Positions 30,655 through 59,819 of a DNA stretch of 64,000 bases are shown one piece after another (position 1 is the first letter of the stretch; each line of letters opens with the position of its first letter). Both the position numbers and the translations under genes were made by a program. The DNA lies in contig JAJFFJ010000043.1 of the NCBI GenBank assembly GCA_021776685.1, forward strand, positions 1 to 64,000, written 5' to 3'. Source of the DNA: Alphaproteobacteria bacterium (GTDB lineage Bacteria; Pseudomonadota; Alphaproteobacteria; Bin65). Under the pieces are notes generated by a model. The model made no database searches and had not been told where the DNA came from. It was given only the letters and a program-made list of their open reading frames with translations.

Positions 30655-30667
30655 TGAAGCTTTCCAC

Positions 30668-33901: not shown

Positions 33902-34957
33902 CTAGTTCAAATCGATCGACTGCATCATTTTGATATTGAAATATCTTTCATCGGTCATGGTATCGGCCAGGCGGCCATCCTTGAAGGCAGAAAGAAGGTC
34001 CCGGACCGCATCACCGATTGTCTTTTCGGCGACAAATCCCCACTCAGCCGCAATCTTTTTGGACGTGACGCGGTAGGACCGATGGTCGTCAGTCGGGACG
34101 ACTTCAAGGTCAATGTCTCCGCCCAGTGTGTTGTCCCTGGAGACTATCTCGCGAACCGTCTCTGCCAGTTCGATCACCGACGCATTATCGTGGCCGACAT
34201 TGTATATCTTTCCATCAATCAGCGAATCCGGAAGCGACACCGACATCTCGTAGGCCCGAACCATGTCATCGATGTGGATGTTCGGGCGTGCTTGTTCGCC
34301 GCCGAAAACCTTGATGCTACGCTTCGACACGGCATGGTTTGTCAGAATGTTAACAATCACATCCATTCGCTGCCGGGGAGAATAGCCGCAGACAGTTGCC
34401 GGACGGATGGTCAGTGTTGTGAAGCCAGGCTCCCGTTCCTCCTCAAGGATCTGCTCGCAAAGCGCCTTGTAACGCGAATAGTCCGTCAACGGCTCGACGG
34501 TCAGGTCTTCCGTGACCTCTTCTTCTTCCTTGATGCCGTACACACTGGATGAAGAAGCGTAGACGAATCTTTTGACATCGGCGGCCTTGGCTGCCTGCAC
34601 CAGTGGCCGGAACGCGTCGAAGTTTATCGACTTACCCAAGTCAGGATCGAGTTCGAAGGACGGATCATTGGAGATACAAGCCAGATGAATGACCATGTCG
34701 CATCCCGCCATGGCCTTGTGTACTGCTGGCGCATTGCGGATATCGCCCTGGACGATGACGAGATTTGGATGATTTCGAACGGCGTCCAGGACATGGTGGC
34801 CATAGAGGAACAAGTCTAGGATGGTAACCACGTGGCCCCGTTGCAGCAATCTTGGCACCAGAACGCTACCAACATAGCCGGCACCGCCGGTCACTAAGAT
34901 GCTACGCGGATCAGCCATCGTTTCTATGGGTCCTTTGTTTAGAGTTGCTGCCGTCAT
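33902..34957 (-). CDS. NAD-dependent epimerase/dehydratase (extended SDR)
   Basis: A 351-residue extended short-chain dehydrogenase. The cofactor motif is ILVTGGAGYVGSVLVP, and the catalytic YxxxK is YSRYK (about residue 158), with SSSSVYG before it. PNIHIDDMVRAYEM is the typical UDP/GDP-sugar epimerase/dehydratase pattern. An acidic stretch KEEEEVTED follows the active serine region. The start ATG 34957 overlaps the SIS gene stop by ATGA. It probably epimerises or dehydrates the nucleotide sugar made by this operon. Confidence 0.92.
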   Translation of the reverse strand: MTAATLNKGPIETMADPRSILVTGGAGYVGSVLVPRLLQRGHVVTILDLFLYGHHVLDAVRNHPNLVIVQGDIRNAPAVHKAMAGCDMVIHLACISNDPSFELDPDLGKSINFDAFRPLVQAAKAADVKRFVYASSSSVYGIKEEEEVTEDLTVEPLTDYSRYKALCEQILEEEREPGFTTLTIRPATVCGYSPRQRMDVIVNILTNHAVSKRSIKVFGGEQARPNIHIDDMVRAYEMSVSLPDSLIDGKIYNVGHDNASVIELAETVREIVSRDNTLGGDIDLEVVPTDDHRSYRVTSKKIAAEWGFVAEKTIGDAVRDLLSAFKDGRLADTMTDERYFNIKMMQSIDLN

Positions 34958-35535
34958 GCAAATTTGCCGACGGTATCCAATCCCATATGCAGGTCAAGGA
35001 TACCGTGCAGAAGTGCAAGGTGACCGACCTCAACAAATCCATATTCCGATTTCGACATAAAGAAGTTTACGTCACCAAGTCTCCGTAGCGGGTTCTGGTC
35101 CGAAAAACCACTAAGTGTGTAGGACTTGCAACCACGATCCCTGGCAACCTCAACGGCGTTGAGTATATTTGCGGATTGGCCTGAACTGCTGATGGCAACC
35201 AGAATGTCCCCCCGTCGGGCATGCCATTCGATCTGCTTGGAAAAAACAAACTCGTAGCCATAGTCGTTGGAAATGCACGTCAACACGGATGGGTCATTCA
35301 GCGCTGTCGCGCGGATCCCCCCGTTTTTGCTGTAGTCAACGGCCATGTGACTACAGACACCTGCGCTGCCACCATTGCCAATGAACATCACGCGCCCGCC
35401 ACTATCGTGCACATTCTGCATTTCAATGCCGGCGGAACGGATTGCTTCATCCAGATCGATCCGGTCCCCTGACCGATCGGTCACAACAGTTCCGAGGACG
35501 CATTGCGCCAGATTGCGAATGTATTTTTCAATCAA
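34954..35535 (-). CDS. SIS-domain isomerase (GmhA-like)
   Basis: A 193-residue SIS protein. The phosphosugar-binding loop FIGNGGSAGVCSHMAVDYSKNG (about 51-72) and VAISSSGQSANILNAVEVAR match sedoheptulose-7-phosphate isomerases. GmhA-type enzymes convert sedoheptulose 7-phosphate to a heptose 7-phosphate. Its neighbour encodes a fused sugar kinase/nucleotidyltransferase, the next steps of that route. The metal-binding residues of GmhA cannot all be confirmed by eye, so another SIS substrate remains possible. Confidence 0.85.
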   Translation of the reverse strand: MIEKYIRNLAQCVLGTVVTDRSGDRIDLDEAIRSAGIEMQNVHDSGGRVMFIGNGGSAGVCSHMAVDYSKNGGIRATALNDPSVLTCISNDYGYEFVFSKQIEWHARRGDILVAISSSGQSANILNAVEVARDRGCKSYTLSGFSDQNPLRRLGDVNFFMSKSEYGFVEVGHLALLHGILDLHMGLDTVGKFA

Positions 35536-35552: not shown

Positions 35553-37124
35553 CTATTTAAGAAGAGTGGTGAGGTAACGCTGAACCTCTATTTTCTCTAA
35601 CGGTCTCCTGTGCCCTACTATGCCAATTTTTATTGCGCCTGCGATATTCCCAAGAAAGCCAGCCAACTCACATGATGCGCCAGCAGCAAGTAGGGCTGAT
35701 GAGATTACGAAAAACGCGTCACCAGCCCCGATCGTATCGACAACGTCTTGTGAAATGGCCGGAATTTGTATGGTCTCTGAATTACCACCTTCCGATACGA
35801 TGCATCCTCGCGATCCATCTGTAACAATGATGTTATCCCAATTCGGTCGCGCATGACGCAGTTGTCCAACCAGTTCGGCGAGCGGCTCGTGTTTCCCTGA
35901 CGTCGCCAACCTCGCTTCAAGGGCATCGATACAAACCAAGTCTGCCCTGTTGTATTTGGTAACGAGGTTAAACCCGATGTTTCCGGCGTTCGACTGAGAG
36001 TTAACTGCCAGGTAGCCAGGCAGGCTTTCGATTATGCCCACCGTTTCGTCGTTGATTAGCCCATGCCCGAAATCACAGACGATTGTCAAATCTGCGGTAC
36101 TGCATTTATCTAGGATTCGCTCGTGTAGTTCCTTTCTATTCTCGTCATCAAGCGGCTGGTCATTCATGTCATAAACTTCGAAGAGTTTTCGGACGTAGGT
36201 TGGCTCGACGAATCGGGTCTTCCGGACTGTCGGTGCGTCTCCACGCCGTACAAATGATGTGCTCACAGATTCCGGCAGGGCCTCGTTGATTAGCTGCTCG
36301 ACTTCGTCTAACGCATCGTGCGCGCCGATCACAGAGATCACGTCGACGTTTTCGCAGAAGGATGCCAAGTGACCCGCCGCTGCAATGGCACCCCCCGCAA
36401 ATATCTCTTCATCCCGTCGCAATGTCGCGATGATGTTTTCTTTCGCTGCCTTCCCCAGCGCCTCCACATAGACGTAGTGATCGATGATCACCTCCCCCAC
36501 GACGGCGATCTTCATGCCGGCGACAACTTCGAGGAGTTCCGCCAGTGATGTTTCCGCGGCTTGGATAGATCCACGCTGTAGATATTCCCGCGCGGTCGCG
36601 CCAACCTTTCCGAAATGCCGGTTGAGCAATCTCGTTGAACTGTAGGTTTCTTCGTGGGTGAAGACGACGCGGCCGCCATTCTCTTCAACGGCAGCCCGCT
36701 CGACATCGATCATCCCGGTGATGTCGTCGGAGGCGTTCTCATATTCGCCGCCCTTGACATAGATGTCCGGACGAACGGCTTCGATTGCGGGAACGGCTGT
36801 TGGACCTTCCACTACAGCCACATAGTCGACAAGTTCAAGCGTTGCGAGCATCTCGGCTCGAAGCGCGGATGTGAAGGCTGGTCTGTCAGGCCCCTTTGTG
36901 ATGAAGGCGTCGGCGGTAATTGTGACTACTAGTAGGTCCCCGTGCCGGCGTGCCGCATTGAGATGACGAACGTGACCGACATGCAAGAGGTCGAAGGCGC
37001 CATGACACATGACGATCTTTCGCGAACCACGGTGAGGGTCCAAACTCGTCGAAAGCCATGCGAGAGATTGAATTTTTTCTTGAGCATCTCTCAATTTGGC
37101 AAAACCCGAGTTAGAATTGATCAT
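35553..37124 (-). CDS. nucleotidyltransferase-PfkB kinase fusion, reversed HldE order
   Basis: A 523-residue two-domain protein. The N-terminal cytidylyltransferase-like domain has GAFDLLHVGH (residues 42-51, HxGH) and a later TYSSTRLLNR. The C-terminal ribokinase/PfkB domain runs from about residue 190, with FAGGAIAAAGHLAS and the catalytic DTIGAGDAFF (463-472). HldE has the same two activities (heptose 7-phosphate kinase and heptose 1-phosphate adenylyltransferase) but with the kinase first; here the order is swapped. It lies directly upstream of the GmhA-like gene. Heptose specificity is inferred from context. It is the first gene of the operon that runs to 29893. Confidence 0.88.
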   Translation of the reverse strand: MINSNSGFAKLRDAQEKIQSLAWLSTSLDPHRGSRKIVMCHGAFDLLHVGHVRHLNAARRHGDLLVVTITADAFITKGPDRPAFTSALRAEMLATLELVDYVAVVEGPTAVPAIEAVRPDIYVKGGEYENASDDITGMIDVERAAVEENGGRVVFTHEETYSSTRLLNRHFGKVGATAREYLQRGSIQAAETSLAELLEVVAGMKIAVVGEVIIDHYVYVEALGKAAKENIIATLRRDEEIFAGGAIAAAGHLASFCENVDVISVIGAHDALDEVEQLINEALPESVSTSFVRRGDAPTVRKTRFVEPTYVRKLFEVYDMNDQPLDDENRKELHERILDKCSTADLTIVCDFGHGLINDETVGIIESLPGYLAVNSQSNAGNIGFNLVTKYNRADLVCIDALEARLATSGKHEPLAELVGQLRHARPNWDNIIVTDGSRGCIVSEGGNSETIQIPAISQDVVDTIGAGDAFFVISSALLAAGASCELAGFLGNIAGAIKIGIVGHRRPLEKIEVQRYLTTLLK

Positions 37125-39508: not shown

Positions 39509-40957
39509 TTAGGTTTGACCGTCGTAACGATTGCGCCAGACACTCAAATCTCGGTCGATGAGTTGTTCGAGGCGATCGACATCAGCCCGGAAATACCTGT
39601 TAAAAATGTATTGCTTGTATTCTGAGGACGGCTTTTGTTGAAGGCGCCGTCCCAGGTTGATCGCCGATTCCACCAATTTCAGCTCCGGATTAGATTGGTC
39701 GATACTCAATTGTTCGGGATTGTCGGACCTCACGACGAGACGCGCGAAGCTTTCCTTCTGGAGGATTTCGGTTGATGTAGGGTTCTGAATTTTGCGGCCG
39801 TCATTGAAGAAAAGGTCGATCGACACTGTCGAGGGCGCACGGCTTGCCTGATGATAGCGTTCATGAGCGGACAGTGAGAGGCGCATTGCTTGATCGTCAT
39901 AGCAGGAGAGATAATCGAAAAGTTTCAGGAGCGTAACGCTGGTCTTAGCCCCGAGATCGGATTCCATTACTATGACGTGTAAATTTTCTGGACCAAATAC
40001 CGATTGGTATGACTCTATCACATTGGCGTATTTTCCGCGCTGCACATAGGCAAAGTGATTTCTGTATTCTCCAGGTTGCTCAGTCGACCTTTGTTCTTCC
40101 AATTCTATCGCTGCCCTAAAATCGAAATTCTCAACAAAGGTGCCATTTGGGCGCAACGTGCGGACTCGCATTTGGTACTCAGAGAACGCTCGCTCAACTG
40201 GGTCTCGCAAACAGATAATAATTCGTGGCCTATCGCATACTAGATCCCTGATGGTGTTCGCGCCGCCATCCTGAAAATAGCCATATCCCACTTCAAACTG
40301 CGCCACTATCGGGCACTCTTCGTTCACCGTATTCGCGATCTCATCGAATTCACTGAGGCATTTATCAAGGTGGAGCCGATCCAATGCAGCAATATCTTTT
40401 GGAAATGCGCTAATCGACGGATGGTCGCGGAAGATTGAGTAAAGAAAGCTCGTCGCTGTTTTTACCGAGCCAATACAAAAAACATTCGGATATCCGGGAC
40501 GCCTGGGCGCAGGGACCGGCGCCCGCCGTGGTCCGATTTTCCCTAGTTCAGCTCGGTAGTCCTTGCTGGATAAAAGAGTAACAATTGCGTTCTGCCATTC
40601 GCCTAGATGCTCTTTATTGATATTTCGGTCGGCTGCCGTGGTTTCGAAGGCATGGGACAGCTCTTCAACTCTTTCATCAAGGCGCGAAACATTTTCAGCG
40701 GCCACTTCTAGCTCTTGCGCCAGCCGATCTCGGTCCACTGCCGTGGTTTCGAAAGCATGGGACAGCTCTTCAACTCTTTCATCCAGGCGTGAAACATTTG
40801 CAGAGGCCACTTCTAGTTCATGCGCTAGCCTGTCTCGGTCCGCCGTGGTCGTCTCGAAGGCATACTTGTAGGTTTCTAGTTCCGTTTCTAGTTCCGTTTC
40901 TAGTTCCGCAGCCCTTCCTGGCTTCAAGCGACTGAGCATCTTCTTAATCACATTCAA
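39509..40957 (-). CDS. sulfotransferase with N-terminal repeat coiled coil
   Basis: A 482-residue protein. Residues about 17-110 are charged heptad-rich sequence with a 35-residue repeat (AFETT-ADRDRLA-ELEVA-NVSRLDERVEELSH, two full units and a partial third) and three short ETEL units before it. This should be a coiled coil. The C-terminal sulfotransferase domain has the PAPS 5'-phosphosulfate loop GSVKTATSFLYS (163-174) and the 3'-phosphate site ICLRDPVERAFSEYQ (about 254-268). It probably sulfates a glycan or lipid; the coiled coil may drive oligomerisation or anchor it to a partner. GSVKTATS replaces the more usual PKxGTT loop. Confidence 0.85.
   Translation of the reverse strand: MNVIKKMLSRLKPGRAAELETELETELETYKYAFETTTADRDRLAHELEVASANVSRLDERVEELSHAFETTAVDRDRLAQELEVAAENVSRLDERVEELSHAFETTAADRNINKEHLGEWQNAIVTLLSSKDYRAELGKIGPRRAPVPAPRRPGYPNVFCIGSVKTATSFLYSIFRDHPSISAFPKDIAALDRLHLDKCLSEFDEIANTVNEECPIVAQFEVGYGYFQDGGANTIRDLVCDRPRIIICLRDPVERAFSEYQMRVRTLRPNGTFVENFDFRAAIELEEQRSTEQPGEYRNHFAYVQRGKYANVIESYQSVFGPENLHVIVMESDLGAKTSVTLLKLFDYLSCYDDQAMRLSLSAHERYHQASRAPSTVSIDLFFNDGRKIQNPTSTEILQKESFARLVVRSDNPEQLSIDQSNPELKLVESAINLGRRLQQKPSSEYKQYIFNRYFRADVDRLEQLIDRDLSVWRNRYDGQT
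40630..40865. repeat. 105-bp in-frame tandem repeat within the sulfotransferase gene
   Basis: The marker CGAA(G/A)GCAT recurs at 40646, 40751 and 40856, exactly 105 bp apart. Two complete units and part of a third are present, with only scattered substitutions. The unit length is a multiple of three (35 codons), so unit gain or loss would keep the frame. Confidence 0.85.
40872..40907. repeat. 12-bp tandem repeat, three units, same gene
   Basis: GTTTCTAGTTCC occurs three times in tandem and encodes the ELET repeat of the coiled-coil region. It is frame-preserving like the 105-bp repeat next to it. Confidence 0.8.
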
Positions 40958-41232: not shown

Positions 41233-43113
41233 TCAGACCGCTTTAGTTGCAGGTACTTTCTTCTCTAGCTTATTTTCTGCTGCCTTTCGCATCCTCCCTA
41301 CGGTGGGCGACAAACGATACCCAGGCAACGCAATACCAAGGTAATCAGCGATAGGCTTGTCGAGTTCAGCACCTCGTTCTTTCAGTTCGACACATTTGGC
41401 TTCGACGGATTCACGAAACGACACTTGTTCCGGAGTCATGGCCTTTTCCGGCTCCCTGACCCACTCGATCATGTCCTCTACTGCCGCGAGCACTTCCCCT
41501 GGTCGAGCTTCTTTCACCCGGATTCCGGCGGATCGAAAGTGGAAGGCGTTGTCAAAGTGCTGAGCATTGTTTGAGAGAGCGTCCTCAAGAGCAATGGGCA
41601 CCCATCGCCCAGCCCGCCTCTGTTCATACCGTTTGAAGCAGGCCATTTCCATCGGCGCCGGAAGGAGCGTGTAGTGCAACACCGCGTTCACCGATAGCAG
41701 CGGCTTACCCAGTGCACGCGCGTACGCGCAAGGGCCCGATTGACAACCAATCATGAAGTCGGCGTGGGCAATGAAGAAGGGGTCGTACTCGGGTCGATAC
41801 CGCCGTTCAAATGGCAGCTCGACATACCGCTTGTTTCGAATTTTTAACCTAGGCATTTGGCCATCTCCAATTCGAACCACTTGGTATCCCTGGTTGAGCA
41901 GATGCCGGATTGCTGGAACATAGTTCCTGATTTGGGTGTTTCGAAAGGCTTGGGCGCCTAATCGATGATAGGCGTCGTGGCGCGCGTGGAGGACAACCAA
42001 TGGCTGATCAACATCAACCTTTATTCGACGCGCAAATTCTTGGCCCCGCCTCTCAAGGCCGGCTGGCAGCATCATACTCCACTCATTATGCCGGAAAGAG
42101 TCGTCTGGATCGCGCGTTCGGTGAACCGCTTCACGTAGTAAGCTCCAATAATTCTCGAAACAAAGATTGATCGACCCTTCACTCAATGTCCCAAAGTGCA
42201 TCCACGAGGCATTCAATATTGGGTCGTCGGTGACAGGAATATATTGGGCGTATTCGTCGATGATCCGGAGGCAAGCTGCAGACCCTGGACGATACGTGGC
42301 GCGGCTTGGCCCCAAGAGGAAGACCTGATCATATTCTTGTCTTCGGAGTGCAAGGAAATAGTACGGATCCAAAATAGCATGGCCGAGGGCTTGGGTTGAC
42401 GAGTGGAAAAATACTCCGTAACGGCGCGACCAATCTTTACGTGCCAAATCAAGGATAACCCTGACCGCCAATGGTCCAGAACAACGTTCCATGATGCGCA
42501 TATGCAACTGATCTTTAGTTTCCTTGTCGTCGAGCGGTTTTTCCGCATCGACCATCTCGTAGAATCGCCCGAAGTGCGCCTTTGCCCTTTCAACGTCAAG
42601 CAGGTGCCCATTAGCAAAAGCCGCGTTAAGCCCTAGGATTGGGATCGAAAGAATTCCAGGATCAAGGTCGTGTGCGATGGAAAAGCTGGCCGCCGACTTG
42701 GAGAGGTTACCCGCTGTGTAGTTGGCAACTGCAGCGGCTAGATGAAGGCTGGCGTTCTCAGGATATCGGAGAAGAAGGGCCTGAAACGAATCGGATGAAA
42801 ACGCCCTGGCGCTTACTTCAGGGCGTGAGGCAAATCCACGAAACAGCCACAGCACCTCAACTACTGATTGCAAGGGAATGAGGTGCCTGACCCAAACGGC
42901 GCCCCAAACAATCATTCGTTGTCCAAATGCACCTACTATGAACTCCATCGCACGCGCGGATCCCAGGCGCCGTTGTTGCCGACCGACATTCGCAAGAATT
43001 AGGACCAGCAAGATACCTCCCAAAGGCGTTAGGCATAGCAACTTGGCGAAGCCGCGAAAAAAAATGTTCCCTGCAAGGCTTTTGATTGTCTGATAGAGGG
43101 CTTCCGCAATCAT
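41233..43113 (-). CDS. putative glycosyltransferase, TIGR04372-like
   Basis: A 626-residue protein. A hydrophobic N-terminal segment (FAKLLCLTPLGGILLVLILANVG, about 22-44) suggests membrane association. A tetratricopeptide-like part follows (about 95-190). The C-terminal catalytic region has VVLHARHDAYHR, AFRNTQIRNYVPAIRHLLNQGYQVVRIGDG and FFIAHADFMIGCQSGPCAYARALGKPLL, the pattern I recall for TIGR04372-family glycosyltransferases of surface polysaccharide loci. Donor and acceptor are unknown. A degraded copy of its C-terminal end lies near 56860-57120. Confidence 0.75.
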   Translation of the reverse strand: MIAEALYQTIKSLAGNIFFRGFAKLLCLTPLGGILLVLILANVGRQQRRLGSARAMEFIVGAFGQRMIVWGAVWVRHLIPLQSVVEVLWLFRGFASRPEVSARAFSSDSFQALLLRYPENASLHLAAAVANYTAGNLSKSAASFSIAHDLDPGILSIPILGLNAAFANGHLLDVERAKAHFGRFYEMVDAEKPLDDKETKDQLHMRIMERCSGPLAVRVILDLARKDWSRRYGVFFHSSTQALGHAILDPYYFLALRRQEYDQVFLLGPSRATYRPGSAACLRIIDEYAQYIPVTDDPILNASWMHFGTLSEGSINLCFENYWSLLREAVHRTRDPDDSFRHNEWSMMLPAGLERRGQEFARRIKVDVDQPLVVLHARHDAYHRLGAQAFRNTQIRNYVPAIRHLLNQGYQVVRIGDGQMPRLKIRNKRYVELPFERRYRPEYDPFFIAHADFMIGCQSGPCAYARALGKPLLSVNAVLHYTLLPAPMEMACFKRYEQRRAGRWVPIALEDALSNNAQHFDNAFHFRSAGIRVKEARPGEVLAAVEDMIEWVREPEKAMTPEQVSFRESVEAKCVELKERGAELDKPIADYLGIALPGYRLSPTVGRMRKAAENKLEKKVPATKAV

Positions 43114-44751: not shown

Positions 44752-45726
44752 ATGTTACCGCCAGCCGAACTATCCTGGAGTGGCAAAACGACAAACATCC
44801 CAGCACTCACAATCGTTACGTCGGTTCTGAACGGTCTGCCATACGTGAGCGACATGCTGGCATCGATCCCAGTCAGATCCGATGTCGAACATCTGGTCAT
44901 TGATGCCGGATCCACCGATGGCACCGTCGAATTTCTGGAAGGGCAAAAGGGCCTCCGGTTGGTTCGCCGGCCGTCCCTTCCGCTTTATGACGCGTGGAAT
45001 CTTGCCCTGGCGGAAATGCGCGGTGCGGCCGTTTGGTTCGTTAACGCGGACGACCTCGTTGCGCCCGGGGCAGTCAAAGCCGTACTGAAGGGCCTATCCA
45101 AGTACACGGCGGCTGAGGTAATCCAGGGTCGATCAGAGGCATTCAAGAATTGCGAATCTAGGGACGGGCCTTCGACACCGTATCCAGCGCCTGGAGAAAT
45201 CCTCCACCTCCTGGATGTCATATTTGGCGCGCCGGTGATAAATGGACGCATATTTCGCCGAAGCCTTATGGAGCGGGCGGGGCCCTTTGATACACGCTAT
45301 CAATTTGCGGCGGACCGGGAATGGCTGTTGCGGCTCGCGACAGCGCCATCCTCACCGGTTTGTCGGGACCTTGGCGTACTGCTTTACCGCTATCGCATTC
45401 ATGAAGGTTCAATGACTTTGGCCCAGACACCGGCGAGGCGACTGGCAATTGCCGACGAGCACCGGCAGGTGGCCGCGCGGGCATCAAGGCAGTTGAAAAT
45501 GCGGTCAAATGGAGATCAATATACAATGCGTATGCTACAAGCCTGGAGCGCAAGGGAAGCCGTTGCTGGCTTGTGGTCGGCGCTGCGTGCATGTCGATTA
45601 TGGGCAATTACCCGCCTGTCCTTCGTAATCGGCATCCAGCCGGCATTGGCCGTTCGGCTCGCACGCGCGCGAAAATGGCAGCGTGCCTATTTACGCCGCG
45701 CGAGAGCGGTTTCACCTAAATGTTGA
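44752..45726 (+). CDS. glycosyltransferase family 2
   Basis: A 324-residue GT-A fold enzyme. The N-terminal part is LTIVTSVLNGLPYVSDMLASI and HLVIDAGSTDGTVEFL (nucleotide-sugar site), with VWFVNADDLVAPGA as the DXD-like metal site (about residue 98). The acceptor region RYQFAADREWLLRLA matches the WcaA/PglI-like group. A basic, helical C-terminus follows. It transfers one sugar of the repeat unit; specificity unknown. Confidence 0.9.
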   Translation: MLPPAELSWSGKTTNIPALTIVTSVLNGLPYVSDMLASIPVRSDVEHLVIDAGSTDGTVEFLEGQKGLRLVRRPSLPLYDAWNLALAEMRGAAVWFVNADDLVAPGAVKAVLKGLSKYTAAEVIQGRSEAFKNCESRDGPSTPYPAPGEILHLLDVIFGAPVINGRIFRRSLMERAGPFDTRYQFAADREWLLRLATAPSSPVCRDLGVLLYRYRIHEGSMTLAQTPARRLAIADEHRQVAARASRQLKMRSNGDQYTMRMLQAWSAREAVAGLWSALRACRLWAITRLSFVIGIQPALAVRLARARKWQRAYLRRARAVSPKC

Positions 45727-45736
45727 GACGGATGAG

Positions 45737-46354
45737 ATGGCGGCAGCGATGTGTCATATCGGTCTGGATCTCGACAATACGATAATCGACTACAGCGAAG
45801 CCTTTGGTTCCGTAGGTATTCACCATGGTCTGCTCCCTAGAGAGCAGGTCATGGTCTCAAAAAATGCGGCGAAGGACTATTTGCTGGCGCAGCCGAATGG
45901 CATGCACGACTGGATGCGACTGCAGGGGCTTGTGTATGGACCGCAGATCCATTCTGCACGCCTGTATGACGGCGTGGAGAAATTCGTCCTCGAAGCCGAT
46001 CGGCGTGGCCACCGGATTTCCATCGTCAGTCACAAAACCGAAAAGGGGCACTTTGATACCAGCGGCACCAGCCTTCATGATGCAGCCCTCTCTTTTCTGC
46101 GAGCTGCGGGGTTGGTTGGTCGCGACGGCACTATTTCGGAAGACGATGTTCACTTCTTGTCAACGCGGGATGCGAAGGTGCGCCGCATTGGCGAGATCGG
46201 TTGTGATGTGTTTGTCGACGACCTGCCGGAAGTCTTGCTTCATCCGGAATTCCCGCGGGGCACAAAACCGGTTTGGTTTGCCGAACCTACCGAGAACCAA
46301 ATGGGGTTGACGGCTGTCAACAACTGGGATCGCCTGCATGCCTTGCTTGAATAA
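45737..46354 (+). CDS. HAD-superfamily phosphatase-like protein
   Basis: About 205 residues from ATG 45737 (ATG 45749 is an alternative). The HAD motif I is GLDLDNTIIDY with the Asp nucleophile; motif II may be ISIVSHKT and motif IV DVFVDDLPEVLLHP. It lies after the GT2 gene and before the split transketolase. A sugar-phosphate phosphatase role in making the unusual sugar is possible. The frame upstream of 45737 overlaps the GT2 gene and is unlikely to be translated. Confidence 0.82.
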   Translation: MAAAMCHIGLDLDNTIIDYSEAFGSVGIHHGLLPREQVMVSKNAAKDYLLAQPNGMHDWMRLQGLVYGPQIHSARLYDGVEKFVLEADRRGHRISIVSHKTEKGHFDTSGTSLHDAALSFLRAAGLVGRDGTISEDDVHFLSTRDAKVRRIGEIGCDVFVDDLPEVLLHPEFPRGTKPVWFAEPTENQMGLTAVNNWDRLHALLE

Positions 46355-46469: not shown

Positions 46470-47291
46470 TTGCCTGACAAACCGCTGGATGATCGTTCCA
46501 AATTTCTCAGACGGCTTGTTGTCCGGGGTCTGGAGGGGGGAAACCGGGGCCATGTCGGCTCATCCATGTCGCTGGTGGAAATTCTCAGGGTTCTCTACGA
46601 TTCCGTCCTCCGGTTCGATCCGAAGACACCGGCCGATCCTGCCCGTGATCGTTGTATCCTGAGTAAAGGGCACGGTTGCCTCGCCCTCTACGCCATCCTT
46701 GTCGACAAGGGATTTGTGGATCCAAAAGAACTCGACCGCTTTTGCCTGCCCGGCGGTATGCTCGGCGGCCATCCCGAGCGGGGGAAGGTGCCGGGTGTGG
46801 AAGCATCCACTGGCGCATTGGGGCATGGTCTCTCGATTGGCCTTGGGATGGCGCTTGCGGCCCGGGCACAATGTCGGGACAGCCAAGTTTTTGTTGTGAT
46901 GGGCGATGGCGAGATCAATGAAGGCTCGATCTGGGAAGCCGCACTCTGTGCAGGCAAGCATGGACTGTCAAATCTCTGGGCGCTCGTCGACTACAACAAG
47001 ATCCAATCGGCCGGACCAACCCGCGATATTCAGGATCTGGAACCCTTGACGGACAAATGGCGCGCTTTCGGATTTGAGACGCTTGAGGTGGACGGGCACG
47101 ATGTAGATGCTCTCGAAGCCGTGCTGGGCACCGGTGCTCCGAATCTAGATAAGCCGACCGCGATCGTCTGTCATACGGTCAAGGGAAAGGGCATTCCTTT
47201 CGCCGAGAACGATCCGAAGTGGCATCACCACTCAAAGTTTGATCCTCGGGTACTCGAGGAAATGTACGCAGCGCTGGAGCCAGGCTCGTGA
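46470..47291 (+). CDS. transketolase-like, N-terminal (ThDP-binding) subunit
   Basis: A 273-residue subunit carrying the thiamine diphosphate-binding half of transketolase. GHVGSSMSLVEILRVLY (about 26-42), SKGHGCLALYAIL, STGALGHGLSIGLGMALAA and the ThDP/Mg motif VMGDGEINEGSIWEAA (GDG...N, about 142-157) are all present. The start is TTG 46470 with AGAGGA upstream. With the next gene it forms a split enzyme that moves two-carbon ketol units between sugars. Finding it in a polysaccharide locus beside 2OG-oxygenase and LIC12192-like genes points to biosynthesis of a special sugar and not central metabolism. Confidence 0.93.
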   Translation: MPDKPLDDRSKFLRRLVVRGLEGGNRGHVGSSMSLVEILRVLYDSVLRFDPKTPADPARDRCILSKGHGCLALYAILVDKGFVDPKELDRFCLPGGMLGGHPERGKVPGVEASTGALGHGLSIGLGMALAARAQCRDSQVFVVMGDGEINEGSIWEAALCAGKHGLSNLWALVDYNKIQSAGPTRDIQDLEPLTDKWRAFGFETLEVDGHDVDALEAVLGTGAPNLDKPTAIVCHTVKGKGIPFAENDPKWHHHSKFDPRVLEEMYAALEPGS

Positions 47292-48235
47292 GAAAAACCT
47301 GTATCAAAATGATCCACGAGCTAGCCCAGAGAGACGAACGGGTTGTATTCATCGGGTCCGATCTCAGCCCCGGTCTCCTTTCCGAGATGAAGGAGGAAAT
47401 GCCGGAGCGCTACTTCATGGAAGGCGTCACCGAAGCCAATGTGATCGGCATGGCTGCAGGAATGGCCATGGACAACTTTGTTCCCTATGTGAACACGATT
47501 GCCACATTCATTACGCGACGTTGTTACGAGCAGGTGGCCCTTGATCTCTGCCTGCACGATTTGCCCGTCAGGTTGATCGGGAACGGCGGCGGGGTTGTTT
47601 ACGCCCCCCTTGGCCCTACACATCTTGCTGTCGAAGACATGGCGATTATGCGGGCCCTACCCAACATGACGGTTGTTGCTGTCTCTGACGCTGAAGAAAT
47701 GGTCCGGCTCATGGAGGCGAGCCTAAACTGGCCGCACCCGATATACATCAGGCTGGGTAAAGGTGGCGATCCCGTCATTTCGAGGGAGGAGCACGGCTTT
47801 GAGATTGGTCGTGGAATTGTCTTGAAAGCGGCAGCGCGGCCTGGGGCAGCGCTTCTGATTTCAACCGGCGTCATGACCGCCCGGACGCTCGCGGCCGCCG
47901 AATCTTTGGCTGGCGACGGGCACGATGTCGAAGTGCTGCACATGCATACTGTGAAACCACTCGATGCGGAACTGCTGCTGGAACGCGCTCGACATGTTCA
48001 CTGTATTTGCACGGTCGAGGAGCATTCGGTGATCGGCGGGCTTGGCAGCGCCGTTGTCGATGCTCTGGTCGATGCCGGCCGTTTCAGCCTGCCCGTTATG
48101 CGGCGACTCGGCCTGCCGGACAGATTTGCCGATTCCTACGGTGTTCAGGATGATCTGCTGGAGCGTTTTGGGCTTCAGCCGGAGCAGATCGCAGAAACCG
48201 TAGGCGAACTCATGCGCCTGGATCGCGTGGCATGA
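47288..48235 (+). CDS. transketolase-like, C-terminal (PYR plus C-domain) subunit
   Basis: A 315-residue partner of the preceding subunit. The pyrimidine-binding domain includes the activating Glu in YFMEGVTEANVIGMAAGMAM (about 39-58), then FITRRCYEQVALDLCLHDLPVRLIGNGGGV. The C-terminal domain follows with CICTVEEHSVIGGLGSAVVDAL. The start is GTG 47288 in a GTGA overlap with the first subunit, and its own stop overlaps the 2OG-oxygenase start by ATGA. Split transketolase pairs of this size are common among specialised sugar and metabolite clusters. Confidence 0.93.
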   Translation: MRKTCIKMIHELAQRDERVVFIGSDLSPGLLSEMKEEMPERYFMEGVTEANVIGMAAGMAMDNFVPYVNTIATFITRRCYEQVALDLCLHDLPVRLIGNGGGVVYAPLGPTHLAVEDMAIMRALPNMTVVAVSDAEEMVRLMEASLNWPHPIYIRLGKGGDPVISREEHGFEIGRGIVLKAAARPGAALLISTGVMTARTLAAAESLAGDGHDVEVLHMHTVKPLDAELLLERARHVHCICTVEEHSVIGGLGSAVVDALVDAGRFSLPVMRRLGLPDRFADSYGVQDDLLERFGLQPEQIAETVGELMRLDRVA

Positions 48236-49050
48236 ATGCGCACCCGCTTGGGTTCGCTGATGCCGGTGACAACACGGCATGCAGGGCCTTTCTTCGCGAC
48301 GGATTTGTCATCGCAGCGGCAGAAGACCGGTCATCGCTCGACCGAATTAGGTCACACATCGCCTCGGCTGTACGCCATCACCTCGATGCCGGCGAGGATG
48401 ACGACGACGCTGCCCTCCTCAATCAGGTCCATCGTTATGTCGATAAATCGGGGCTGAATGAGCTTCGGCTGGCGGTCATTAATGGGCTCCGGGCGCAAGA
48501 CTGGTTCCGGCCCACCTATTTCTCGGTCGCTCGGGGGCTGATTGAGAAGATCGTCGGCAACGAACTGGTCATGCAGCGCGGAGCCGGACTAAGCGTTCAA
48601 CTTCCCGGCGATCAAAGCTCGCTGTTACCGATCCACACGGACGTCTGGGATGGTGATTCGCCTTTCGAGGTAGTTCTGTGGGTGCCTATGGTCAACTGTT
48701 TCGCGACCAAGAGCATGTACATCCTGCCTCTGGATGTAGACAGGGACTATCAATCTCGTGTCGCCGATTTCCGGGAACAAGGCAGCGAGGCGCTTTTCGA
48801 GGCCGTAGAGAAAGATGCCCAGTTCCTTAAGATAGATTATGGGTCGGTCCTCTTATTCAGCCAGACGCTAATGCACGGAAACCGTGTCAATGAGGAAGAA
48901 ACGACGCGGTGGAGCATAAATTGCCGCTTCAAGAGCGTGATGTCGCCCTATGCGGACAAGCGGCTAGGCGAATTCTTTGAACCAATATCGGTCCGGCCAG
49001 CGACCCATATAGGTCTCGCCTACGAAATGCCGGGCGGATTTGGTGACTAG
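48232..49050 (+). CDS. 2OG-Fe(II) oxygenase, sporadic carbohydrate cluster type
   Basis: A 272-residue non-haem iron oxygenase. The facial triad is visible as IHTD (His135, Asp137) and MHGNR (His215), with Arg226 (ETTRWSIN) placed to bind 2-oxoglutarate. I recall this sequence type as the 'sporadic carbohydrate cluster 2OG-Fe(II) oxygenase' family (TIGR04324); that is recall without a search. It is translationally coupled to the transketolase pair and overlaps the next gene by 11 bases. It could hydroxylate or desaturate a sugar or its carrier. Confidence 0.85.
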   Translation: MNAHPLGFADAGDNTACRAFLRDGFVIAAAEDRSSLDRIRSHIASAVRHHLDAGEDDDDAALLNQVHRYVDKSGLNELRLAVINGLRAQDWFRPTYFSVARGLIEKIVGNELVMQRGAGLSVQLPGDQSSLLPIHTDVWDGDSPFEVVLWVPMVNCFATKSMYILPLDVDRDYQSRVADFREQGSEALFEAVEKDAQFLKIDYGSVLLFSQTLMHGNRVNEEETTRWSINCRFKSVMSPYADKRLGEFFEPISVRPATHIGLAYEMPGGFGD

Positions 49051-49480
49051 TCGCCATGGCCATCGCGGCTATATCGGTTCGCGCCGCTACTTGGGCGACC
49101 GAGCGCCGCAACATGTACAGAACCTTGTTATTCGGGACTTCTGCGCCCGAAACGGGCACACCTACCTTCTCTCCGCGACCGAGTATGCGATGGAAGGTTG
49201 CTTCATGATTTTGGAAGATCTTGTGGAGGAAGCGCCGGCCCTGGAAGGGGTCGTCCTGTACTCGATCTTCATGCTGCCGGAGAGCCGGAGTAGCCGGACC
49301 CAATACCTCCATCGGTTCCTCTCGGCGGGTGTGACCATTCACGGGGCCGTCGAGAATTTCGATCTGCTCACCGAGACAGGACTGCTGGAGCTGGAGGCAC
49401 TCTGGAAGTTGCGGCAACTTTCTGACCGCGCCGGACCGCTTGCCGGGGTTAGCCGTGAACTCAGAGATTTGATTGGCTGA
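49040..49480 (+). CDS. sporadic carbohydrate cluster protein, LIC12192-like
   Basis: A 146-residue protein from GTG 49040. RGYIGSRRYLGDRAPQHVQN (about 9-28), VIRDFCARNGHTYLLSATEY, and VVLYSIFMLPES followed by FLSAGVTIHGAVE match what I recall of TIGR04323. The biochemical function of that family is unknown. The order of motifs looks like a resolvase N-terminal fold (see findings). It overlaps the 2OG-oxygenase gene, so the two are made together. Confidence 0.78.
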   Translation: MVTSRHGHRGYIGSRRYLGDRAPQHVQNLVIRDFCARNGHTYLLSATEYAMEGCFMILEDLVEEAPALEGVVLYSIFMLPESRSSRTQYLHRFLSAGVTIHGAVENFDLLTETGLLELEALWKLRQLSDRAGPLAGVSRELRDLIG

Positions 49481-50448: not shown

Positions 50449-51420
50449 TCAGCCTGCGCCGGCGTTGTCTGCAGCATTCTCCCGGAACCACCGATAGGTG
50501 GTTTCGAGTCCGGTCCACAGAGTGATTTGCGGTGACCAGCCTAGTGCTGACAGGCGCTCTGTCGACACCAGTTTGCGCGGGGTGCCGTCCGGTTTCTCGA
50601 CGTTAAATTCGAACTGGCCGGAGTAGCCAACGATTTCGGCGATCATGGCGGCCAGATCGTGGATAGAAATTTCTTCGCCGCTGCCTACATTCAAAGCCTC
50701 GCCGGCACGGTCCGAAACTAGCAGGAAGACACACGCATCGGCGCAATCGTCTACATACAGAAATTCGCGCATGGGCCGTCCCGACCCCCAGATTTCTACA
50801 GGCGAACGGCCCCAAATTTTCGCTTCGTGGATCTTGCGCATCAGGGCGGCGACGACGTGACCACTTTCCAGATCGAAATTGTCGAATGGGCCGTAGAGGT
50901 TGGTCGGTATAGCCGTTACGGTGCTGAGGCCGTGCTGGAGCGTCGCGGCTTCCGCCAGCATCGTCCCGGCGAGCTTCGCCAGGGCATACCATCTATTTGT
51001 CGGTTCAAGCGCCCCGGTAAGGAGTGCCTCTTCCGCCATTGGCTGGTTGGCGAACTTGGGGTACATGCAGGACGAGCCTAGGAAGAGGAGGCGCCCCACA
51101 CCGACCGTGCGGGCGGCTTCAATGATGTTCGATTCGATTGCAAGATTGTTGAACAGGAACTCGTATGGCCGTGACTGATTGGCATGAATTCCGCCAACGG
51201 TGGCGGCCGCGATTACAACGGCATCCGGGTTGTTCTGAGCGGCCCATTCGTTCACCGCAGCCTGGTCGCGCAAGTCAAGCTCTTGCCGATCAGCATACAG
51301 GAGGTCGCATGGTTCCTCGCGCAGGCGGCGCATCAGCGCCCGGCCCATCATGCCGAGATGCCCGGCAATCCAGACTTTCTTACCTTTAAGATCGAATGGC
51401 GCGGGTTGGACTACCTTCAT
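50449..51420 (-). CDS. fcl: GDP-L-fucose synthase
   Basis: A 323-residue SDR enzyme. The start ATG 51420 overlaps the gmd stop by [22 protein letters not shown] (cofactor), [21 protein letters not shown] and WYALAKLAG (catalytic YxxxK), and [17 protein letters not shown] are characteristic. It performs the 3,5-epimerisation and 4-reduction of GDP-4-keto-6-deoxymannose to GDP-L-fucose. With gmd (upstream) and manC (60093-61508) the whole GDP-mannose to GDP-fucose route is present. Activity on a heptose analogue is conceivable but not indicated. Confidence 0.94.
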
Positions 51421-52484
51421 GGACCAGAAAGGCCATTGGCCCGTTCGCGCTGGGCAAGGTCTATGTCGGTTTCTATCATCATGCGGACCATTTCTTTGAA
51501 CCCCGTCTGGTGGCGCCATCCCAATTCCGCCGACGCCCGCGCGGGGTCGCCGATCAGTGAATCGACATCCGTGGGCCGGAAATACCTCGGGTCGATTTGG
51601 ACCAGGCACTTGCCACTTCTGGCGTCGATACCAAGCTCTTCCTCGCCAATCCCTTCCCAGTTCAGGCGAATGCCAATTTCCTCAAAGGCGACATTAACGA
51701 ATTCACGCACGGTATGGGCCTCGCCAGTCGCCAGGACATAGTCCCGGGGCGTGTCCTGCTGCAGCATCAACCACATGCCCTCAGCATAGTCGCGGGCATA
51801 ACCCCAGTCCCGAAGCGCTTCGAGGTTGCCGAGGTACAAGCAGTCCTGCATGCCAAGAAAAATACGCGCCACCGCGCGCGTGATCTTCCGTGTGACGAAA
51901 GTCTCACCCCGAGTGGGCCCTTCGTGGTTGAAGAGGATGCCGTTGACAGCGAACATGTCATAGGCTTCCCGGTAGTTGATAGTCATCCAATACGCGTAGA
52001 GCTTGGCGACCGCATACGGGCTTCGGGGCTTGAAGGGTGTGTCCTCGTTCTGTGGCGGCGTGCTTGCCCCGAACATCTCCGAGGAGGACGCCTGGTAAAA
52101 GCGAATGTTATTCTGGAGGTCGAGGACGCGGGTCGCTTCCAATATGTTCAGGGCGCCTAATGCGTTTACCTGCGTCGAGTAAACGGGCGTCTGGAAGCTA
52201 ACTTGGACGTGGCTCTGTGCCGCAAGATTATAGATTTCATCCGGCTGGATTCGACGGATGAGGTCGATCATGTTGCTACTGTCGGTTACGTCGCCATAGT
52301 GCAGGCTGAATCGTGAGCCTTCGTCTTGGGGCTCCCGGTAGAGGTGATCGATCCTGGTGGTCGAAATGGTTGAGGTTCGGCGTTTGACGCCATGGACCTC
52401 GTACCCCTTTTCGAGAAGGATTTCAGCCAAATGGGCGCCGTCTTGCCCAGTTACACCGGTAATGAGTGCGGATCGATTCTTCAT
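51417..52484 (-). CDS. gmd: GDP-mannose 4,6-dehydratase
   Basis: A 355-residue [25 protein letters not shown] (cofactor), [22 protein letters not shown] and the catalytic [29 protein letters not shown], and [17 protein letters not shown] are classic Gmd motifs. It converts GDP-mannose to GDP-4-keto-6-deoxy-mannose. Because heptose genes are in the same locus, a GDP-heptose dehydratase role (as in WcbK/DmhA of other species) should be kept in mind. A 23-bp tandem repeat lies in its leader. Confidence 0.94.
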
Positions 52485-52558: not shown

Positions 52559-53554
52559 CTAATTTGAAAGACGCTCAAACCAGGTATGCGTCGCTTCGGC
52601 GATTTTTTCTGGCGTCCAGACAGGTGCGTCGCGCCAATATTCAATGTGCTCGAGCATTTTTCCGACGCCTGTTTCGAAATCGATCACGGCGCGCCAGGCT
52701 AGATCCCGTTCGATTTTAGAAGTGTCGGCCCAGGTACAGTCGGGCTCTCCCGGTCGTTTTGGGATATGGATCGTTTCTGTTGCACCAAGTTTCTCCACCA
52801 ACTGGTTTATACTGTAGGTACCGCCGCTGCCGACGTTGTAGATTTCGCCGATCCTGTCTGACGCGGCCGCCGTTATGAAGGCGTCAACAATATCGCTGAC
52901 AAAGGTGAAATCTCGCGTCTGCTCCCCGTCGCCTACAACCGTCAACGGTTCGTTGTTGAGCAATTGGGCGAGGAAGACGCCGAATACAGCGCCGTAGGTG
53001 CCGCTCGTCCGCGCGCGCGGTCCATAAACGTTGAACATCCGCAGTGATACTGCAGGCATCTGGTATACTTGGGCCCAGTGCATCACGATCTGCTCACCCA
53101 GATTCTTCGTCAGCGCATAGGGGTACTGGGGCCGGATCGGCGCCTCTTCTGGCGTGGGGAAAGAATCAGGTAATCCGTAGCAGGTCGATGACGCCGCGTA
53201 GAGAAATCGACGGACATTCGCGTTACGCGCCGCCTGAAGGGTATTGAAAGTACCGTTTACGTTGGAACGGAAATACTCCGCCGGGCGTTCGATCGACGGG
53301 ACGATATCGGCGAGCGCAGCGAGGTGGAAAACCCGCTCCGCACGATCAAAAAGTCTATCGACGTCGGTAGGATCAGCAAGGTCTGCAGTAACCACCTCTA
53401 GGGAAGGGTGTGCCCTCAGGTGCTCAAGGTTTCGGGGATCGCCATTGCTGAAATTATCGATCACCCGGACGTCGCGGTTTTCGGTCTGGATTAAACGGTC
53501 GACAATATGACTACCGATAAATCCGGCCCCTCCCGTAACTATATCTAGTCCCAT
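52559..53554 (-). CDS. NAD-dependent epimerase (UDP-sugar 4-epimerase type)
   Basis: 331 residues from ATG 53554, which gives the proper start [21 protein letters not shown]; longer frames add unlikely sequence. The catalytic region is YAASSTCYG and [12 protein letters not shown] (YxxxK), followed by [17 protein letters not shown] and [14 protein letters not shown]. This is the UDP-glucose/UDP-N-acetylglucosamine 4-epimerase (WbpP/GalE-like) pattern. It supplies another nucleotide sugar to the locus. It is divergent from the WbuC gene. Confidence 0.9.
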
Positions 53555-53695
53555 GACCTGCAATTCCCTTCGGCTGGACACTTGGAGTCTCGGTCCATCG
53601 TTGGTCGATATGATCATTCACGCTTTCATACCTGCTTGGCGTACTTATGCCAAACCGGACCTCGCCTGCGGGGGCGCTGTGCGTTACATTCGCAT

Positions 53696-54253
53696 ATGAG
53701 TTTTCGTCCAGATCAGCTTCGGGAAGTTGCTTCCGGTATCTTCTATCCGCCCAATCCAGAAGACGTCGTCAGCGCCGATGATTCCTTGGTCGCACATTTA
53801 AAAGATGTCGCGGCGTCAATTCCACTGCGCCGGGCGCGCCTGTGCGCTCACCCGGACAGCGAAGCAATTCAGCAGGATATGCTGATTGTTAGCCATCGCG
53901 ACACTTATGTTTGCCCACATCGCCACCTGACGAAGGCAGAGACGATGCTAGTGATTGAAGGATTGGCGGATGTCTATTTGTTCGGTGATTCTGGAGAACT
54001 GAAGCGTGTGCTCGGGATGGGGCCACTGGAATCTGGCCGCACCTGTTTCTATCGGATGCCACACCGCCGGTTTCATGGTCTGCGTATCGAAAGTGAGTTT
54101 CTCACCTTCGTCGAAAGCACGCGGGGGCCATTTCGCCCGGCGGAGTCCGAGGACGCGCCATGGGCTCCGCCCAAGGAGGACATTGAGGCGGGCCGCAAAT
54201 TCCTCGAGGAGGTCGCGCGAAAGGGTTCAGCCATATCGCGCCGCCTTTGCTGA
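53696..54253 (+). CDS. WbuC-family cupin metalloprotein
   Basis: 185 residues from ATG 53696. The cupin core has PHRHLTKAETMLVIEGLADVYLF (His residues of the metal site, about 81-103) and YRMPHRRFHGLRIESEF. This matches the WbuC family found next to GDP-fucose genes in many O-antigen loci; its function is not established. Here too it is near gmd and fcl. It ends 10 bases from the convergent methyltransferase-like gene. Confidence 0.85.
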   Translation: MSFRPDQLREVASGIFYPPNPEDVVSADDSLVAHLKDVAASIPLRRARLCAHPDSEAIQQDMLIVSHRDTYVCPHRHLTKAETMLVIEGLADVYLFGDSGELKRVLGMGPLESGRTCFYRMPHRRFHGLRIESEFLTFVESTRGPFRPAESEDAPWAPPKEDIEAGRKFLEEVARKGSAISRRLC

Positions 54254-57120: not shown

Positions 57121-57200
57121 CACGCGCTCAGCAGTGCTGAAATTTGCCGAAGCAGATCTGCTTTCCGCATGCGCCGAAAATAGGAAATCAGTTCAACGCT

Positions 57201-57863
57201 ATGAATGAGCTAAATTTTCTCGAGAAATATCAGAAATCAACAGAGCGCAATTATGTCGAGCGTGTTATTTCGCACGACAAAGCCGAATGCGCGACCGTTG
57301 CTGGGCATTGGGGCCGGGATTACTGGGACGGCGAGCGCCAATATGGCTATGGCGGTTATACGTATGACGGCCGTTGGCTGCCAATCGCCGAGGACATTGC
57401 TGCCCACTATGAACTCAAGCCCGGCGACCGCATTCTCGATATTGGTTGCGGCAAGGCCTTTCTGCTCTACGAGTTCACTTGCGCAGTTCCCGGCATTGAG
57501 GTTACTGGCATCGATGTATCGAGCTACGGCATCGCGAATTCCAAGGAAGAAGTGCGCGGTAACCTGCGGGAAGGCGCCGCGCAGAACCTTCCTTGGGCGG
57601 ATAACAGCTTCGACTTTGTCTATTCGATTAACACCTTCCACAACTTAGGCCTTCCAGACCTTAAACAGGCAGTTATGGAAATGGAGCGTGTATCAAAGGG
57701 TAGTAGCTGGTTGTGTGTCGAATCCTACCGTAATGAGCGCGAGAAAATGAATCTTCTCTACTGGCAGCTTACCTGTCAGAGCTTTCACAATACAAATGCA
57801 TGGAAATGGCTACTCGCTGAGTGGGGTTTTTCAGGCGATTGTGGGTTCATCTTTTTCGAATAG
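57201..57863 (+). CDS. class I SAM-dependent methyltransferase
   Basis: 220 residues from ATG 57201 (AGGAAA upstream). GDRILDIGCGKAFLLYEF (about 74-91) is motif I, EVTGIDVSSYGI motif II, and NSFDFVYSINTFHNLGLPDL motif IV/V. The N-terminal GHWGRDYWDGERQYGYGGYTYDGRW is distinctive and recalls methyltransferases of polysaccharide loci. It is followed by the NUDIX and phosphotransferase genes in the same direction. The acceptor is unknown. Confidence 0.88.
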   Translation: MNELNFLEKYQKSTERNYVERVISHDKAECATVAGHWGRDYWDGERQYGYGGYTYDGRWLPIAEDIAAHYELKPGDRILDIGCGKAFLLYEFTCAVPGIEVTGIDVSSYGIANSKEEVRGNLREGAAQNLPWADNSFDFVYSINTFHNLGLPDLKQAVMEMERVSKGSSWLCVESYRNEREKMNLLYWQLTCQSFHNTNAWKWLLAEWGFSGDCGFIFFE

Positions 57864-58823: not shown

Positions 58824-59819
58824 ATGGAACCGATGACTAGGGGTATCCCGGCAGAGGTCCTTTCCGTGGCCCAATCCTTGTTACCTTCAGCAGTGGACAG
58901 GGTTGCCTCGGCAGGATCTGGTGCAAATAGCCATGTATATCGTGTCGAGTGCGAGGGAGCGGTCTATGCGCTGAAGCAGTATCCCCGGCTGGACAAGGAC
59001 CCGCGACCACGCCAGGAAACAGAATGGCGCGCGTTGACCTTCATGCGCCTGCATGGAATGGAAAATGTGCCGCGCGCAATCAAGCGTTCTGACGACGGCC
59101 GCTTCACGCTTCTGGATTGGGTCGAGGGGCGGCCGATCGACAAGTATAGCGACGATGACCTCACTGCCCTGATCCGATTTGTCATTGGCGTGTTTAAACT
59201 GTCTGAAAAGGAAGGTGCGCAAGATTTCGGTCCAGCGTCCGAAGCCTGCCTATCCACCGAAGACATTATTGTCCAGGTCAGCTTCCGCTTGAGGCAGCTC
59301 CGAGATGTACCGTTTCTGGGGGATTTTATCGAAGGCAATTTGCGCACGGCGTTCGAATATTTATCCGCACGCACAAAACGTTCACGAACAGCAGGGGCGG
59401 TGGTTTCGCAGCATCGGCGCCTTGTTCCCGCTGATACAGGGTTTCACAATGCCTTGCGCCAGCGGCACACAGGCCGGCTTGTCTTTCTGGACTTCGACTA
59501 TTTCGGATGGGATGATCCTGTGAAACTAGCATCAGATATCATGCTTCATCCTGCGATGTTGCTAGAAAAACACGAGGCGATAAGGGTAGCCATGGTCCTC
59601 GGCGCAGCAGTGCCGGAAGATAGAGCCTTTCGTGACCGCCTTCAGGATCGACTAAAGCTCTTGGCTTTGCGGTGGGCCCTGATCGTCCTAAAGCCTTTCG
59701 CGGCTGCGGCTGGAGCCGTTAGTGGGGCCGAATTTCCTGCGGTAGAAATCGAACGCAGATTGGCGCTGGCAAACCAAATCCTAGATGCTGCCGACAAGAT
59801 TTGGGCGTCGCTCGAATAG
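58824..59819 (+). CDS. APH-family phosphotransferase
   Basis: 331 residues of the aminoglycoside phosphotransferase/choline kinase fold. GSGANSHVYRVECEGAVYALKQYP holds the nucleotide-site Lys (about 50). The catalytic loop reads VPADTGFHNALRQ (D-x4-N, about 206-218), and the metal-binding loop FLDFDYFGWDDPVKL. A variant of this family, with D-T-G-F-H-N, recurs in surface-glycan loci. It probably phosphorylates a sugar, lipid or other small molecule. It is 233 bases downstream of the NUDIX gene. Confidence 0.85.
   Translation: MEPMTRGIPAEVLSVAQSLLPSAVDRVASAGSGANSHVYRVECEGAVYALKQYPRLDKDPRPRQETEWRALTFMRLHGMENVPRAIKRSDDGRFTLLDWVEGRPIDKYSDDDLTALIRFVIGVFKLSEKEGAQDFGPASEACLSTEDIIVQVSFRLRQLRDVPFLGDFIEGNLRTAFEYLSARTKRSRTAGAVVSQHRRLVPADTGFHNALRQRHTGRLVFLDFDYFGWDDPVKLASDIMLHPAMLLEKHEAIRVAMVLGAAVPEDRAFRDRLQDRLKLLALRWALIVLKPFAAAAGAVSGAEFPAVEIERRLALANQILDAADKIWASLE

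Follow-up and report, generated by a model that had tools for sequence, protein, structure and literature searches.

We analyzed a stretch of 64,000 nucleotides from an Alphaproteobacteria bacterium of the lineage Bin65 (positions 1 to 64,000 of contig JAJFFJ010000043.1, assembly GCA_021776685.1; hereafter the window). Four overlapping open reading frames (ORFs) of the + strand, in the order TKN-TKC-OX-SP1, span positions 46470-49480. They encode the two halves of a split transketolase (TK), an Fe(II)/2-oxoglutarate (2OG) oxygenase and a protein of the TIGR04323 or LIC12192 family (Table 1). TKN and TKC overlap by four bases (GTGA), TKC and OX by ATGA, and OX and SP1 by 11 bases; the ORFs and their overlaps agree here with an earlier reading of the same sequence, the original prediction. 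An AGAGG-like site precedes the TTG start of TKN, and 115 bases separate this gene from an upstream gene of the HAD superfamily. A scan for promoter and terminator patterns inside the four-gene unit found no excess.

A split transketolase with an altered acceptor pocket

The closest PDB matches of TKN and TKC are the two chains of the split TK of C. hydrogenoformans (6yak, its N-chain, E 3.7e-67; 6yaj, E 2.4e-56). This enzyme is the best structural relative of both halves and is divided in the same manner, into a thiamine diphosphate (ThDP) chain and a Pyr plus C chain. With adjacent genes, one for the PP domain and one for the Pyr and C domains, the window enzyme is a split TK, and both Pfam domains and PDB matches bear out the ThDP and PYR/C subunits that had been proposed.

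We aligned 24 members of the family with the C. hydrogenoformans enzyme and with the housekeeping TK that the host genome encodes separately. The residues for ThDP, metal and donor (H26, H66, H100, D155, N185, E411 and H473, E. coli numbering) are those of a canonical transketolase (EC 2.2.1.1) in all 24. The acceptor and phosphate residues are not: H461 is replaced by Gly in 24/24 members, D469 by Leu in 23/24 and R520 by Lys in 23/24. In TKC, the altered pocket takes the form of the motif NGGGxVYAPLGPTH. The C. hydrogenoformans enzyme keeps the equivalents of H461, D469 and R520, whereas the family with G, L and K is found in sugar-nucleotide loci. The variant TKs form a single clade (support 99/96, in a midpoint-rooted tree that contains long branches).

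H461 is described as normally tied to binding the phosphate of natural TK substrates (PMC3657141); D469 and R520, along with S385, were altered in E. coli TK to move the enzyme from phosphorylated to non-phosphorylated, aliphatic and aromatic aldehydes (PMC5073344). Laboratory changes at the positions altered in this family thus shifted E. coli TK toward non-phosphorylated, apolar aldehydes (PMC5073344; PMC3657141). Split TKs, which lack the linker, take bulkier aldehydes (PMC7661550).

The oxygenase and the TIGR04323 protein

Both small genes belong to the families named for them in the original prediction: OX scores 307.5 bits with TIGR04324 (curated cut-off 150) and SP1 scores 126.8 bits with TIGR04323 (curated cut-off 55). 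The predicted HxD...H iron triad of OX is indeed present, as H135, D137 and H215, and is invariant in 27 oxygenases together with the 2OG-binding R226. The AlphaFold model of OX (pLDDT 87.7) retrieves Fe/2OG oxygenases as top PDB matches in Foldseek, including the sugar-modifying AviO1, EvdMO1 and HygX. These three share the oxygenase fold at about 14-17% identity; among the matches listed, the highest target-normalised TM-score (0.60) belongs to AviO1.

For SP1 (AlphaFold pLDDT 91.7), each of the top 16 PDB matches in Foldseek is a serine recombinase; the best has E 1.3e-5 and probability 1.00, and TM-scores are moderate at about 0.46-0.65. SP1 is thus predicted to adopt the fold of the serine-recombinase catalytic domain without its catalytic motifs, as a reused fold. 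It shares the predicted fold with these recombinases but has neither their DNA-binding domain, for which it is too short, nor their DRLxR motif: in the profile alignment FMLPE stands opposite DRLxR, and the Ser site is unconserved. Because HMMER searches of PDB and Pfam gave no SP1 homologue, and no match to Pfam Resolvase, the fold assignment relies on structure prediction. HHalign against a small resolvase alignment returned a probability of 16%, with E 0.0016 against 0.015-0.5 for controls. No resolvase-family match was found in the host genome. The invariant residues R15, Q27, R32, E48, R86 and E105 lie in the model near strand ends or in adjoining helices, a placement that would suit a putative ligand site. 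If the pathway proposed below is right, it would also suggest the reuse of a DNA-recombinase fold in sugar metabolism.

Conserved partners of the transketolase

To follow these genes in other species, we scanned 84,980 genomes with an alignment of six oxygenases, which gave 236 confirmed relatives. The best 80, plus one locus from a Pseudomonadota sample, make up 81 loci anchored on the oxygenase, in which neighboring genes were called by homology-weighted ORFs and tblastn. As the loci were ranked on oxygenase similarity, figures for TK linkage apply to near relatives. Bradyrhizobium is over-represented (38 of the 81), so that the other 43 loci are counted separately. Many contigs are short, and some taxon names come from metagenome bins and may be wrong (one 'Chitinophaga', one 'Stygiobacter').

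A distance of no more than 10 kb separates the TK C-half from the OX/SP1 pair in 72/81 loci, and in 34 of the 43 outside Bradyrhizobium; relatives of the TK are thus found near the TIGR04324 and TIGR04323 genes in other genomes, as the original prediction required. In these 43 loci, TIGR04323 adjoins the oxygenase 42 times and the TK C-half is directly adjacent 30 times. The usual order is SDR2-HldE-like-SDR-HAD-APH-TKN-TKC-OX-SP1-(radical SAM)-MT1-cupin, where SDR stands for short-chain dehydrogenase/reductase and SAM for S-adenosylmethionine; Bradyrhizobium and Stygiobacter have two DegT aminotransferases between TKC and OX. Among the 81 loci with the conserved cassette are some whose contigs are attributed to Cyanobacteria, Bacteroidota and Ignavibacteriota. 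The window has the same genes, rearranged and partly scattered: 33.9-37.1 kb contains SDR1 and the GmhA-like and HldE-like genes, 45.7-49.5 kb the run from HAD to SP1, and 52.6-54.3 kb SDR2 and the cupin, while MT1 starts at 57.1 kb and APH at 58.8 kb.

Table 1. Features of the window, with the number of oxygenase-anchored loci (of 81) that carry each cassette gene
Feature	Position	Strand	Evidence or remark	Loci
TKN, ThDP/Mg-binding half of split transketolase	46470-47291	+	Transketolase_N, E 8.8e-46 (Pfam); TTG start	69
TKC, Pyr and C-terminal half of split transketolase	47288-48235	+	Transket_pyr and Transketolase_C; GTG start	72
OX, Fe(II)/2-oxoglutarate oxygenase	48232-49050	+	TIGR04324; ATG start	
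SP1, TIGR04323/LIC12192-family protein	49040-49480	+	TIGR04323; TTG start	80
HAD-superfamily phosphatase	45683-46354	+	Real start probably near 45737	63
APH/choline-kinase-type phosphotransferase	58824-59819	+	Clusters with relatives' gene between HAD and TKN	64
MT1, SAM-dependent methyltransferase	57144-57863	+	Methyltransf_11; mostly right after SP1 in relatives	76
HldE-like fusion, reversed domains: nucleotidyltransferase (N), PfkB kinase (C)	35553-37124	-	CTP_transf_like then PfkB	63
GmhA-like SIS-domain sugar-phosphate isomerase, remodelled active site	34954-35535	-	gmhA model, 100.5 bits (cut-off 209)	56
SDR1, NAD-dependent epimerase/dehydratase	33902-34957	-	galE-type SDR; kept with HldE-like/HAD in relatives	
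SDR2, NAD-dependent epimerase/dehydratase	52559-53617	-	GalE/LegB-type	54
WbuC-family cupin	53582-54253	+	TIGR04366, 109 bits (cut-off 42); often next after MT1 in relatives	50
Wzm/Wzt-type ABC exporter and GDP-fucose genes	29893-31564 and 50449-52484	-	gmd above cut-off; fcl-like	
Sulfotransferase-like protein	39509-40957	-	Repeated coiled-coil N-terminus	
Large protein	41233-43113	-	TIGR04372 glycosyltransferase domain, 113 bits (cut-off 45); TPR-like region	

We also surveyed 398 Pseudomonadota genomes with a DNA pattern for VYAPLGP[TS]H. TIGR04323 is present in seven, all of which have the TK: six match the pattern, and the TK of the seventh was found by tblastn. The pattern matched 24 genomes in total, 18 of them without TIGR04323. 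Fisher's test of this co-occurrence gives p ~2e-9, uncorrected for kinship, with five of the seven genomes being of one genus. In 14 TK loci examined from genomes without TIGR04323, we found neither OX nor SP1, while HAD is present in 11, and APH, MT1 and a close radical SAM gene in 12 each. Conversely, for nine OX/SP1 loci that have no TK nearby, six genomes have a close TK elsewhere (52-67% identity), and the four such TK loci that were read all show HAD-APH-TKN-TKC with the same TK motif. The linkage is asymmetric. That the TK travels with the two 'sporadic carbohydrate' genes holds true, but these do not form the basic unit with it: as the TK core exists without them, mostly with HAD, APH, radical SAM and methyltransferase genes, OX/SP1 is an add-on to this core rather than one half of a four-gene unit. 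The closest TK partners are the HAD phosphatase and the APH-type kinase, plus the divergent GmhA-like and HldE-like proteins and the methyltransferase.

Two Microcoleus loci (L030 and L047) carry OX, SP1 and MT1 with GmhA-like and SDR2 genes. Since a search of both genomes found only ordinary TK relatives and no close variant TK, the OX/SP1 pair may serve a different backbone there. One hypothesis is that a small non-sugar substituent, to be attached to the polysaccharide, is the joint product of TK, kinase, HAD, OX and SP1, with the GmhA, HldE and SDR proteins making an independent heptose. The Microcoleus loci would fit, as would the genomes that hold OX/SP1 and the TK core on separate contigs; however, HldE-like and SDR genes are operon neighbors of HAD-APH-TK in many lineages, and we regard this explanation as improbable.

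In Thalassobaculum (genome G398, L142), a second, divergent OX/SP1 pair adjoins a split TK that is itself divergent and carries the motif GGGVIYSTLGGTH; this suggests a second subclass of the cassette. Another cassette locus contains a further oxygenase-like gene with 33% identity to the window oxygenase (L018:4915-5682). Of 297 genomes from the phylum to which the Geothrix genome belongs, only one has TIGR04323, and a plasmid search with the oxygenase gave no match.

The upstream HAD gene, suspected from the start to contribute a dephosphorylation step, does belong to the set, and its motifs DxDNT, S-H-K, K146 and DD are invariant in 19 relatives. The APH-type kinase was overlooked in the original prediction, which also left the GmhA-like and HldE-like genes unconnected. 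In most relatives the kinase gene is directly upstream of TKN, from where it is displaced in the window; the member of this intervening gene in L061 matches PF01636, and K51, E67, D204, N209 and D223 are invariant.

The HldE-like protein has HxGH in its N half and GAGD in its C half, opposite to the order in canonical HldE, in 27/27 relatives, and its score with the hldE equivalog model is 163 bits against a cut-off of 521. In the GmhA-like protein (E. coli residue numbers), the phosphate loop S119/S121/S124 is retained, while in 20/20 members D61 is changed to I/V, E65 to D, and R69 is missing; the site departs from that of GmhA. The cassette thus recalls the NDP-heptose pathway (NDP, nucleoside diphosphate; GmhA, HldE, GmhB and HldD) in having a GmhA-like and an HldE-like protein, a phosphatase and SDRs, but differs from it in the altered isomerase site and the reversed domains, with both proteins under the equivalog cut-offs. 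Canonical gmhA and hldE are found on another contig of the host (for HldE, a separate gene on C47), so that the window copies are dedicated paralogues.

Linkage of a TK to GmhA-like and HldE-like genes could also reflect simple supply: an ordinary extra TK would raise the level of sedoheptulose-7-phosphate, the natural substrate of GmhA, to feed the making of heptose by the polysaccharide locus. Yet the acceptor residues of the TK are altered across the family, the GmhA-like protein is without D61, E65 and R69, and the host encodes a housekeeping TK already, along with canonical GmhA and HldE, which makes this account quite unlikely.

A tentative pathway to a higher-carbon sugar

Computation shows which genes make up the set, that the set is conserved, that its catalytic residues are intact and that the active sites of TK and isomerase are changed across their families; from these we infer the order of steps, substrates, chain length and product. 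Our preferred interpretation, to which we give somewhat less than an even chance, is a pathway dedicated to a higher-carbon sugar that is activated by a nucleotide and belongs to a surface polysaccharide; it would open with a two-carbon transfer onto an unusual acceptor. The split TK would take a two-carbon ketol unit from a donor ketose and pass it to an acceptor aldehyde other than an ordinary phosphorylated aldose, yielding a longer ketose. The APH-type kinase would phosphorylate this ketose, the GmhA-like isomerase would turn the ketose phosphate into an aldose phosphate and the PfkB half of the HldE-like protein would add a 1-phosphate. The HAD phosphatase would then remove the distal phosphate, after which the nucleotidyltransferase half would form the NDP-sugar, to be tailored by the SDRs, MT1 and the OX/TIGR04323 pair. 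The place of this pair in tailoring may be taken elsewhere by a radical SAM enzyme or by two DegT aminotransferases. This is the simplest scheme that gives each gene one job. A shift to non-phosphorylated acceptor aldehydes would explain the need for an extra kinase, and ketol addition followed by oxidation, as first suggested, is plausible.

Several observations weigh against this pathway. R358 is retained and R520 is replaced by Lys, so that phosphate binding is not clearly lost, and the columns of S385 and H261 could not be aligned reliably. The GmhA-like gene lies within 10 kb in only 18/43 loci outside Bradyrhizobium; in the window itself, the GmhA, HldE and SDR1 genes lie on the opposite strand at a distance of 9-12 kb. 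Moreover, the role of the APH kinase was fitted to the model.

A known parallel is the octose pathway of lincosamides (LmbR, LmbN, LmbP, LmbK and LmbO), in which a C-C transferase is followed by isomerase, kinase, phosphatase and nucleotidyltransferase, then by oxidoreductase and aminotransferase steps (PMC4351081). Its logic matches that proposed for the cassette, by analogy only: the first enzymes are not homologous, LmbR being a transaldolase that leads to an antibiotic sugar and the first cassette enzyme a TK.

Alternatively, the product may be a branched sugar. An SDR dehydratase would provide a nucleotide-activated ketosugar, to whose keto group the TK would add a hydroxyacetyl (C2) branch; MT1, OX and SP1 would then modify the branch. 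YerE and the split PDH-like AviB1/AviB2 are described as adding a C2 branch to such a keto group. SDR2 resembles GalE/LegB dehydratases, the fold of OX is near that of the sugar-modifying oxygenases above, and a larger, less phosphate-specific pocket would suit a bulky acceptor, as would the tolerance of split TKs for bulkier aldehydes (PMC7661550). A branched sugar, however, leaves unexplained why HAD and the APH kinase are the closest partners and why dedicated GmhA-like and HldE-like proteins are present; we consider it unlikely.

Returning to the higher-carbon sugar, a bolder form of this pathway remains doubtful. An undescribed natural class of TK would add two carbons to a non-phosphorylated or unusual sugar aldehyde and feed an isomerase-kinase-phosphatase-nucleotidyltransferase line leading to an octose-type NDP-sugar, with TIGR04323, a repurposed serine-recombinase fold, as a sugar-tailoring enzyme or oxygenase partner. 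If the higher-carbon sugar pathway in general is right, a pathway could be assigned to TIGR04324 and TIGR04323, two named protein families so far without function, and nature would have used the pocket positions that engineers altered to redirect transketolase. The gene set would then also guide a search for such a sugar, as a new one, among the surface glycans of Bradyrhizobium, magnetospirilla and many marine alphaproteobacteria.

Nothing relevant came from literature searches on the family names, on split TK with polysaccharide or on TK with O-antigen and heptose, and the literature searched contained no description of the wider cassette or of the predicted TIGR04323 fold. In photosynthetic Bradyrhizobium, the genes for bradyrhizose form an operon of 11 genes with gdh (PMC4743980). 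We claim no link to it, as no tie to the cassette is shown and the strains named in that study are absent from the 81 loci.

The setting of the TK in a polysaccharide locus was correctly recognized at the outset. Given the ABC exporter and the GDP-fucose genes, the product of the locus is probably an O-antigen or capsule that leaves the cell by the ABC exporter and contains a 6-deoxyhexose derived from GDP-mannose. The window also encodes the large protein with its glycosyltransferase domain and the sulfotransferase-like protein, whose repeated coiled-coil N-terminus has near-identical units with HAFETTAxDRDRLAxELEVAxxNVSRLDERVEELS.

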